From Treponema sp. (lineage in GTDB: Bacteria; Spirochaetota; Spirochaetia; Treponematales; Treponemataceae), in assembly GCF_024696245.1 (NCBI RefSeq), contig NZ_JAILGZ010000126.1, forward strand, positions 1 to 44,480: a stretch of DNA of 44,480 bases, written 5' to 3'. A model generated the notes under the pieces. The model saw only the letters and a list, made by a program, of their open reading frames with translations, ran no database searches and was not told where the DNA came from. Within the stretch, counting starts at the first letter, position 1. Every line of letters starts with the position of its first letter. The position numbers were made by a program, and so were the translations under genes. Below are positions 32,382 to 35,207 of the stretch, piece by piece.

Positions 32382-33365
32382 ATGGAGATTATTTCACAGG
32401 AAAAAATCAGCAGCTTTAAGAAATTCATGGAAGACCATGAAAGTTTTATAATAGCAGGACATAAGGAACCGGACGGAGACTGTATTTCCAGTTGTATGGG
32501 TCTTTCCTATATTGCAGAATTCTTTCATAAACCTTACATAATGATAAATGCAGGTCCCTTTAAGAGAAGCGAAATAAAAAAATATGCAGACCTTTTTACC
32601 CCGACCCTTCCCTTTATAAATCAGCAGGAAAGAAAGGAATGCGGACTTATAATTACAGACTGCAGCGAGATTCAAAGACTGGGAGAAATAGAAGGTGATC
32701 TTGAAGAACTTGATACCTTTATAATTGATCATCATAAAACTGCAGAAGTTCAGGGTGAAAATACAATTATTGACCCTACAAGTCCCGCAGCCTGTCTTCT
32801 TGTACAACAGCTTATCGAAGCACTGTCAGGTAAACTTACAAAAGAACAGGCAGATACACTTTTCTTTGGAATGGCTACAGATACAGGATACTTCAGGTTC
32901 CTTACGGAAAATTCAAAAGAAGTATTCCTTCAGACTTCAAGACTCGTAGAAGCAGGCGCTAATCCAAGGGCCGTTTATCAGGATATTACCGGTGGAAAAC
33001 CCTGGTCTACAAGAAAGCTCCTGGGCATTATGCTTGAAAGAGCTGAACGCCATGCAGAAGGAAAACTTGTAGTAACTTATGAAACAATGGAAGATACCCG
33101 TAAGTATGGTTCAGAAGGAAGGGATAGTGATTCCCTTTACAGCCTTATGCTTGCTGTAGAAGGAGTAGAAGCAGTTGCCTTCGTAAGACAGGACACTGAA
33201 CACACCTGCACCCTGGGCTTAAGATCCAGGGACAAATGTGACGTAAGTGCCATAGCTGCAAAATTTGGTGGCGGCGGTCACAAAAATGCCAGTGGAGCCA
33301 GTACCGAAGGCAGAATAGAAACACTGCTTCCTGTACTTATAAAGGAATTCATGAAGGTACTTTAG
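32382..33365 (+). CDS. nrnA: DHH-family oligoribonuclease/pAp phosphatase NrnA
   Basis: NrnA degrades short oligoribonucleotides and 3'-phosphoadenosine 5'-phosphate. The 327-residue protein has the DHH-DHHA1 architecture: GHKEPDGDCISSCMGL, IITDCSE, IIDHHKTAE, GMATDTGYFRF, and C-terminal GGGGHKNASGAS. An AAGGA ribosome-binding site precedes the ATG. The gene stands alone between two terminators. Because the family also includes c-di-AMP/pGpG-type hydrolases, the in vivo substrate is not fixed by sequence. Confidence 0.9.
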   Translation: MEIISQEKISSFKKFMEDHESFIIAGHKEPDGDCISSCMGLSYIAEFFHKPYIMINAGPFKRSEIKKYADLFTPTLPFINQQERKECGLIITDCSEIQRLGEIEGDLEELDTFIIDHHKTAEVQGENTIIDPTSPAACLLVQQLIEALSGKLTKEQADTLFFGMATDTGYFRFLTENSKEVFLQTSRLVEAGANPRAVYQDITGGKPWSTRKLLGIMLERAERHAEGKLVVTYETMEDTRKYGSEGRDSDSLYSLMLAVEGVEAVAFVRQDTEHTCTLGLRSRDKCDVSAIAAKFGGGGHKNASGASTEGRIETLLPVLIKEFMKVL

Positions 33366-33372
33366 TATATAC

Positions 33373-33419
33373 AATCCTGCCGGGTTAAAGAAAAGTCTGA
33401 CATCCGGCAGGATTTTTTT
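33373..33419 (+). terminator. Strong Rho-independent terminator after nrnA
   Basis: AATCCTGCCGG and CCGGCAGGATT form an 11-bp stem around a 20-base loop, followed by a T run. Confidence 0.92.
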
Positions 33420-33441
33420 ATAAAAAAACTGATTATTTATA

Positions 33442-33516
33442 TTAGTTATATACTAATATTATTAGTTACTCACTTATTTTATTATTTATTTCCTAATATT
33501 CTTAGTTAATTACTAA
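33442..33516. repeat. Four 20-bp-phased dyads upstream of a sigma-54 promoter
   Basis: The unit TTAGT-N5-ACTAA occurs at 33442-33456 (perfect), 33462-33476 (ACTTA in the right half), 33482-33496 (TTATT and CCTAA) and 33502-33516 (perfect). Start-to-start distance is exactly 20 bp each time, so all copies face the same side of the helix. The outer copies extend to longer palindromes (33439-33459 and 33497-33521). The array lies about 100-160 bp before the predicted start of transcription, where enhancer-binding proteins for sigma-54 act. Confidence 0.85.
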
Positions 33517-33580
33517 GAATACTTCCCTCTTTTCATTCAGAAAAATACCTTAAACAGTCAAAATAAGTAATTTTATTAAC

Positions 33581-33596
33581 TGGCACGGAAATTGCT
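33581..33596 (+). promoter_or_regulatory. Sigma-54 (RpoN) promoter
   Basis: TGGCACGGAAATTGCT matches the consensus TGGCACG-N4-TTGCW at every defined position, with GG and GC at the -24/-12 spacing. The predicted start is near 33607, 28 bases before the ATG at 33635. Confidence 0.93.
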
Positions 33597-33634
33597 ATTT
33601 AATTATCTGATCATTTTTAAAGGGAGGGAAAAAA

Positions 33635-34600
33635 ATGGATCAGATTGAACTGACTGCCCTGGCGGTCAACAAAAAAATTATTTCTCCGGAGGAAGGAGCA
33701 AAAATCCTATGGGAGCTGATTTACACTCAGAAAGAAAGGTTTTCACTTACCAGTCTGAGTTATGACAGCTTAATGGACTTTCTTGTATACCTTCATTCAA
33801 GGTTCATTAAAATGCTGGAGGTTTACAACCCGGCAGATGGAACTTTTTTAGCTTTTCTTCACTCAAATATCAGGAACTCCCTGATAACATGGAAAAAATT
33901 CAGTACAAGAAAAAATGTATCTGAAGAATCCTGTCTGGGTGTTATGGAAATTGAATATGACAGTGAAGCTTACAAATACAGCTGCTGTGAAAGTTCCTTA
34001 AAACCCTTTGTCAACGAAGAAAACCACTCTATTGAAGAAATGAAGGAGGAATGGAGAAAAAGGATTTGCAGTAAAAAAAGAAAGCCTGATCTTAAAAAGG
34101 AAGAAAAGCTGCAAAGGGACGCACTTCTTATTCTTGCCTTAAAATCCTGTTACAACATTACGGATGAACTCATAGAAAAAGTCAGTTTTGTTACCCAGAC
34201 TTCCAGAAACGTTCTTGAAGACATGATTTCAGAAGCTAAAAATTCAATAAGTTCCAAAATTACCAGGAGAATAATGTGTACAAGAGCCAGGGATAATGCT
34301 TTTTTTTATCATAGAAAGTATTCCCTTGAAATTCCTAGAATAAGAAAACACAGTAACTGGGCTGAACATCTGGCTGCAAGATACGAAAAACACACAAGAA
34401 TGTGGGAACTTGCAAATCAGAAACTGCTGAAAAGTCACCGCATGCTGGTACCATCAACAAAAACAGTAGCATCAATTCTGGGAATGTCAGTACGTCATTG
34501 TGAATATGTAATGAAAAGGGTTCAAACTGACGTGGACAAGATAAAGCTCAAGTGGTATCCTCGGGAACATGAAAATTTACCTTGCCAGCGGAAACATTAA
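33635..34600 (+). CDS. Sigma-70-like regulatory protein under sigma-54 control
   Basis: The 321-residue protein is basic, soluble and rich in helices. Residues 40-88 (SYDSLMDFLVYLHSRFIKML, then EVYNPADGTFLAFLHSNIRN) resemble sigma-70 region 2.1-2.2 (DLxQE...YDPxxGxFxxFLxxxIRN). A middle part (DALLILALKSCYNITDELI) and a C-terminal helix-turn-helix (PSTKTVASILGMSVRHCEYV) resemble region 4-type DNA binding. Region 2.4 is not clear, so whether it binds polymerase as a true sigma factor is open. It has a very strong AGGGAGGG ribosome-binding site. Position just before rdgB and two flagellins suggests a flagellar or motility role; this is inference. Confidence 0.75.
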   Translation: MDQIELTALAVNKKIISPEEGAKILWELIYTQKERFSLTSLSYDSLMDFLVYLHSRFIKMLEVYNPADGTFLAFLHSNIRNSLITWKKFSTRKNVSEESCLGVMEIEYDSEAYKYSCCESSLKPFVNEENHSIEEMKEEWRKRICSKKRKPDLKKEEKLQRDALLILALKSCYNITDELIEKVSFVTQTSRNVLEDMISEAKNSISSKITRRIMCTRARDNAFFYHRKYSLEIPRIRKHSNWAEHLAARYEKHTRMWELANQKLLKSHRMLVPSTKTVASILGMSVRHCEYVMKRVQTDVDKIKLKWYPREHENLPCQRKH

Positions 34601-35207
34601 TAAAAAAAGAGAGATGGCTGAACTTTTTCCGGAACACCAGGTGGTAATTCCCTCTGATGAAGGAATCGAATTTGATCCGGAAGAGACAGGTTCAACATTT
34701 TACGAAAACAGCCTTATAAAAGCAAAAGCTTTATGGCAGATAGTACACTGCCCTGTTTTTGCAGATGACTCAGGTTTATGTGCCACAGCACTAGATGGAG
34801 CACCTGGAATCTACACATCCAGATATGCAGGTCCGGAATATATGAAGGGCAAACCTGACGGGAGTAAAATTCCTCAGGAAAAACAGAATGAATATCTGGT
34901 AAAGCAGGTTTCTGATGCAGTCAGTAAAAACCCTGAACTTACACGACAGGCACATTACGTATGTGCCATGGTGCTTTACATGGGCCCTGACAGGCTTTAT
35001 GTAGCCCAGGAAACAATGGAAGGAGAACTGATTGCAGACATAAATGAACAGAGGGGAAAAGGTGGATTTGGTTACGATCCAGTCTTTTATCTTCCGGAAA
35101 GAAAATGTACTGCAGCAGAACTTTCTGCAGAAGAAAAAAATGCCATCAGCCACAGGGGTAAAGCTGCAAGGGCTATAAAGAAAATAGCTTCCCAGGTTTT
35201 AGCCTGA
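34569..35207 (+). CDS. rdgB: XTP/dITP diphosphatase (RdgB/HAM1)
   Basis: This enzyme removes non-canonical purine nucleotides (ITP, XTP) from the pool. Signatures are IYLASGNINKKREMAELF, VFADDSGLCATALDGAPGIY with SRYAG, KGGFGYDPVFYLPE and ISHRGKAARAI. It is 212 residues long. The start overlaps the sigma-like gene by 32 bp and has no evident Shine-Dalgarno sequence, so translation is probably coupled. A transcript from the sigma-54 promoter would include it, and it ends at a strong terminator. Confidence 0.95.
   Translation: MKIYLASGNINKKREMAELFPEHQVVIPSDEGIEFDPEETGSTFYENSLIKAKALWQIVHCPVFADDSGLCATALDGAPGIYTSRYAGPEYMKGKPDGSKIPQEKQNEYLVKQVSDAVSKNPELTRQAHYVCAMVLYMGPDRLYVAQETMEGELIADINEQRGKGGFGYDPVFYLPERKCTAAELSAEEKNAISHRGKAARAIKKIASQVLA

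Follow-up and report, generated by a model that had tools for sequence, protein, structure and literature searches.

In a 44,480-nucleotide stretch of Treponema sp. DNA, hereafter the window, four regularly spaced inverted repeats stand between an nrnA-like phosphoesterase gene and an orphan gene with a consensus sigma-54 promoter. This raises the question of whether the repeats serve that promoter as an enhancer and, if so, what kind of protein would read them. The features of the locus are as follows:

32382-33365, plus strand: nrnA-like DHH/DHHA1 phosphoesterase gene, the upstream neighbour (Pfam DHH 6.3e-14, DHHA1 2.7e-9)
33373-33419, plus strand: terminator-like inverted repeat with a T-run that closes the nrnA-like gene just before the array (read directly; an inverted-repeat scan with a loop limit of 8 did not report it)
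33442-33456, no strand assigned: dyad 1, TTAGT-TATAT-ACTAA, perfect (sequence and motif match)
33462-33476, no strand assigned: dyad 2, TTAGT-TACTC-ACTTA, one mismatch (sequence and motif match)
33482-33496, no strand assigned: dyad 3, TTATT-TATTT-CCTAA, two mismatches (sequence and motif match)
33502-33516, no strand assigned: dyad 4, TTAGT-TAATT-ACTAA, perfect (sequence and motif match)
33581-33596, plus strand: sigma-54 -24/-12 promoter, TGGCACGGAAATTGCT (consensus; kept upstream of orthologues)
33622-33627, plus strand: Shine-Dalgarno-like GGGAGG (read directly)
33635-34600, plus strand: gene for the orphan 321-aa protein, with its ATG at 33635 (family, fold and weak profile matches)
34569-35207, plus strand: rdgB (Ham1 family NTPase), overlapping the orphan gene (Pfam 3.9e-52)

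The initial annotation had reported four TTAGT-N5-ACTAA dyads at exact 20-bp steps before a perfect sigma-54 promoter, and both were found as described. The dyads begin at 33442, 33462, 33482 and 33502 with 0, 1, 2 and 0 mismatches, and the element TGGCAC-GGAAA-TTGCT, of the consensus form TGGCAC-N5-TTGCW, lies downstream of them and upstream of the orphan gene. This element predicts a transcription start near 33607, from which the dyad centres are at about -158 to -98, and the distance of 100-160 bp given earlier was therefore right. The dyad array is far above chance expectation. When any 5-mer arm, a spacer of 3-8 and a step of 15-25 were allowed, the best four-dyad array in the window had 3 mismatches in 40 letters, whereas 300 dinucleotide shuffles of this 240-bp segment gave 7 at best and most often 11. 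Only two perfect copies of TTAGT-N5-ACTAA were found in the 2.66 Mb genome, both inside the array, and a sigma-70 promoter scan of the array returned a single match, at chance level and on the minus strand. With 5 bp in the spacer and again 5 bp between dyads, a more apt description is a row of eight half-sites, alternating in orientation and repeated every 10 bp, in the order TTAGT N5 ACTAA N5 TTAGT N5 ACT(T)A N5 TTATT N5 CCTAA N5 TTAGT N5 ACTAA. The 20-bp step is slightly less than two turns of 10.5-bp DNA; across the family, the period comes to about 10.25. Repeated dyads on a single helical face at enhancer distance have the geometry of an NtrC-type enhancer, at which, as the initial annotation proposed, a hexamer of an enhancer-binding protein might bind.

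The gene behind this promoter is itself unusual. Its product may share with ECF and other sigma-70 proteins a region-2-like N-terminal domain, whose model matches sigma-E region 2 with weak E-values, and a predicted C-terminal helix-turn-helix (HTH); unlike them, it is recognised by no Pfam or NCBIfam model and its sequence similarity is marginal. The N-terminal 110 residues were modelled with a pLDDT of 89.5, and a Foldseek search with this model listed 45 matches, mostly sigma region-2 chains, among them all of the top ten; the best E-value was only 0.70. Against 4lup_A (sigma-E region 2), 90 residues were aligned with full-domain coverage at 3.0 A and a Z score of 7.6. In hhalign comparisons with sigma factors of the genus, region 2 was aligned with an E-value of 0.0013 but a weak probability of 18%. 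Some orthologues have weak Pfam matches to Sigma70_r2, r3, r4_2 and GerE, and the HTH predicted at about 275-302 matches Sigma70_r4_2 and GerE weakly in some members only. With the full-length model, a fold search returned nothing but coiled-coil noise. Based on the N-terminal fold, the region-2 profile and the weak Pfam matches, the orphan product is probably a cryptic and very diverged sigma-70-like protein, a putative regulator for which we infer sigma activity. The first 32 bp of rdgB (34569-34600) lie within the orphan gene, and the recurrence of a similar overlap in many relatives suggests one sigma-54-driven operon, in which rdgB is probably co-transcribed with the orphan gene.

A relative of the orphan gene is present in 161 of 195 family genomes. 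It usually lies between nrnA-like and rdgB genes, the nrnA-like gene being the upstream neighbour in most relatives too, and is often near flagellin genes, and a strict or slightly relaxed sigma-54 element was found upstream in 95 of about 120 orthologue loci examined. The initial annotation had looked to conservation of the array upstream of homologous genes. Its geometry is conserved there; its TTAGT-N5-ACTAA sequence is not, as other species have other motifs in this position, and the TTAGT array is absent from G091, the closest relative tested. The TTAGT dyad was accordingly rejected as a conserved treponeme regulator site: a triple half-site pattern occurs in 18 of 200 genus genomes, at frequencies close to those expected by chance, and the 12 genus matches fetched from other genomes all lie away from the orphan gene.

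At the orphan-gene promoter, helical spacing is better kept than half-site sequence. Identical 4-mers in the 240 bp before the -24 element, compared over 93 orthologues, tend to be spaced by 10, 20/21, 30/31 and 41 bp, with mean Z values of 2.5, 2.1/1.6, 1.2/1.0 and 1.3, respectively, and Z near zero between these helical peaks; no such periodicity was seen in 42 intergenic controls or 100 coding segments of the same group. The median helical score was 0.95 for the upstream regions, compared with 0.07 for intergenic and -0.21 for coding segments (Mann-Whitney p=1.2e-6, a nominal value that counts related species as independent). Scores were above 0.8 in 50 of the 93 regions and above 2.5, the top control, in 20. 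The helical score counts direct repeats, and for the window, with half-sites in alternating orientation, it is therefore low (0.06); what sets the window apart is the dyad test. An excess of inverted 5-mers was also seen for spacers of N5 (Z 9.6) and N15 (Z 13.4), with the 13 tRNA-bearing regions counted among the rest. Array density in the orthologues peaks 40-200 bp upstream of -24, which is the usual enhancer zone.

About half of the orthologues carry an array and about half are without a clear one. The motifs differ by clade and include GTTGG, GCAAG, GTCAG/GTAAG, GCCAG, TTACA-N5-TGTAA (at 20-bp steps), CTAGTC and others. In four genomes with GTTGG arrays, these were found at the orphan-gene locus only; GCAAG arrays are nearly confined to it, with single exceptions in G172, G160 and G107, and perfect TTACA arrays occur nowhere else in two genomes. 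No single activator motif common to all upstream regions was found, the top k-mers coming from tRNA genes. Open reading frames run through the arrays of L046 and L063, where a coding explanation was rejected because a repeat length of 10 is not divisible by 3. In thirteen orthologues (L108, L110, L112, L116, L121, L122, L131, L133, L136, L147, L152, L155 and L160) the sigma-54 promoter is immediately preceded by a tRNA gene, which replaces the nrnA-array arrangement, and thus the array is not indispensable everywhere.

An enhancer of this type supposes rpoN and sigma-54 activators in the same genome, and both are present. Three enhancer-binding proteins have a GAFTGA-type loop: an NtrC/Rrp2-like response regulator (GAFTGA) and a GAF-domain protein (GAFTDA), each with a Fis-type HTH, and a third protein (GAFTGS) without an HTH. 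A fourth, degenerate enhancer-binding protein has lost the loop and kept the HTH, and the same activators were found again across 25 relatives. The GAFTGS activator (L018, G000:C119), which has no DNA-binding domain, adjoins a WecG/TagA-like gene, and one short activator like it recurs in most relatives. The degenerate protein (L019, G000:C27), with its Fis-type HTH intact and no GAFTGA loop, has a similar short match in G164:C37 and is perhaps a DNA-binding partner or a decoy. Rrp2 is a predicted sigma-54 activator in T. denticola (PMC12070737). Since the T. denticola AtcR belongs to the LytTR proteins (PMC12070737), an assignment of the response regulator as AtcR was rejected.

Six consensus sigma-54 elements were found in the genome, two inside genes and four preceding genes, namely the orphan gene, Hsp20 and two sigma-70-family genes, and relatives have the same targets. 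Judging by these elements, sigma-54 also appears to drive the two sigma-70-family genes and Hsp20 in this genome. At L068 (G000:C25), L228, L221 and L217, GTATAC/TGTATACA-like sites precede the sigma-54 element by about 130-190 bp. They are a candidate conserved activator site, distinct from the array, of the sigma-54-dependent sigma-70-family gene in several species.

Which of these proteins might read the array? The locus resembles NtrC-type sigma-54 enhancers in its short-spacer dyads on one helical face, about 100-160 bp upstream of a -24/-12 promoter, and in a genome with GAFTGA-type activators that have a Fis-type HTH. Typical NtrC-type enhancers have one to three conserved sites. Here, unlike those, there are eight half-sites one turn apart, and site sequence is not conserved along with the activator: the motif shifts by clade, whereas the activator HTHs hardly change. 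The recognition helices of both HTH-bearing activators (GIGRKTL[QH]RKL, and GIQRTYVSRLLNEL in most species) are nearly invariant in 11 species with quite different arrays. Near-invariant helices facing completely different motifs are hard to square with a base-specific reading. Within the Rrp2-like helix (L183-L192), five species have RKTLQRK and six have RKTLHRK; the latter group includes GTTGG and GCAAG-like clades and is confounded by phylogeny. The most economical interpretation of these comparisons would be homotypic clustering of weak half-sites kept in phase, with avidity standing in for a precise sequence and curvature perhaps contributing.

Other known systems share parts of this arrangement. 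OmpR/PhoB-type tandem operators have direct half-sites repeated every 10-11 bp, as do the arrays of the GTTGG and GCAAG clades; unlike these operators, the window's array alternates in orientation, and to our knowledge such operators have not been described at sigma-54 promoters in this way. The RpoN-RpoS system of Borrelia burgdorferi is similar in that a spirochaete places sigma-70-family genes under sigma-54, with an NtrC-like activator and repeats around the promoter. BosR repeats in Borrelia are contiguous TAAAT pentamers (PMC3037356) and are not helically phased, in contrast to the Treponema half-sites. According to a title cited in PMC3037356, Rrp2 acts in Borrelia without an enhancer. 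The Treponema orphan product is far more diverged than Borrelia RpoS and is not RpoS. We found no description of arrays of this kind in the literature that we searched.

In our preferred reading, to which we give about an even chance, the array would serve a cryptic sigma-like gene as the site, upstream of its sigma-54 promoter, where the activator binds. The eight half-sites, which follow one another at every helical turn along a single face of the DNA, 65-140 bp upstream of the -24 element, would offer a cooperative regulator many weak, phased positions on which to load, and the loaded regulator would contact the sigma-54 polymerase by looping. The likeliest binder would be the Rrp2/NtrC-like response regulator or the GAF-type activator, and the next candidate an accessory DNA-binding protein acting as BosR does at Borrelia rpoS. 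Since what would count for binding is how many sites there are and how they are phased, the half-site letters could drift between clades while the spacing stays. A wider proposal, that this is a sigma-54 enhancer of phase rather than sequence, with clade-specific arrays at one promoter per genome that drive a hitherto unrecognised sigma-70-like factor in an RpoN-to-sigma cascade across the Treponemataceae, is put forward tentatively, and we lean somewhat against it.

Kept phase and free sequence would also be accounted for if the repeats were an architectural element, bending the DNA to bring in a distant or unbound activator so that a sequence-specific binder is unnecessary. In a wedge model, upstream regions are more curved than their own shuffles (mean Z 1.28, compared with -0.08 for control intergenic regions), and curvature correlates with the helical score (rho 0.60). 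This correlation is partly built in, however, since any helically periodic sequence tends to curve, and there are clear arrays without strong curvature (Z 0.92 in the window, 0.39 in L035, 0.18 in L033 and -0.12 in L046). Bending also needs neither dyad symmetry nor clade-conserved cores such as GTTGG, and we regard such an element as unlikely. The array may instead be an operator through which an accessory regulator, either BosR-like or some other DNA-binding protein that evolves fast, raises or lowers promoter activity. At Borrelia rpoS, direct repeats around the -24/-12 region are bound by BosR, which is needed there besides Rrp2 (PMC3037356); motif turnover is as expected of a fast-evolving accessory regulator, and orthologues of the other sigma-54-dependent sigma gene have a different common site, TGTATACA. 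Nevertheless, no candidate protein was identified, and with one array promoter per genome the regulator would be left with a single target, so this explanation too seems rather improbable.

There is only a slim chance, in our judgement, that the arrays are functionless products of neutral tandem-repeat expansion in AT-rich spacer DNA. Those of L046 and L074 do resemble recent 10-bp duplications, the repeats differ by clade and many orthologues are without them. However, arrays recur at one promoter in many clades and are near absent elsewhere in most tested genomes, alternation of 10 and 11 bp preserves helical phase, and alternating inverted half-sites are not given by duplication alone. Autoregulation, in which the sigma-like orphan protein would bind its own array through the C-terminal HTH, might explain why the array is confined to the promoter of that gene; both protein and array evolve fast, and the GTTGG clade has a common FYINHxR helix in the orphan protein. 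Yet the array motif does not co-vary with the orphan HTH (partial Mantel r -0.03 to -0.16 with the sigma-2 domain controlled), GCAAG arrays occur with very different orphan HTH helices, and the near-identical helices of L024 and L025 occur with different arrays. For want of this co-variation, autoregulation by the encoded HTH was rejected, and we consider it very unlikely.

If the enhancer reading is true, the locus would represent an enhancer in which selection acts on the spacing and the letters drift, and which motif searches would miss. It would extend the RpoN-controls-sigma logic of Borrelia to Treponema, where sigma-54 is little known. A conserved but unannotated gene, adjoining rdgB and often near flagellin genes, would then be named as a likely sigma-like regulator.
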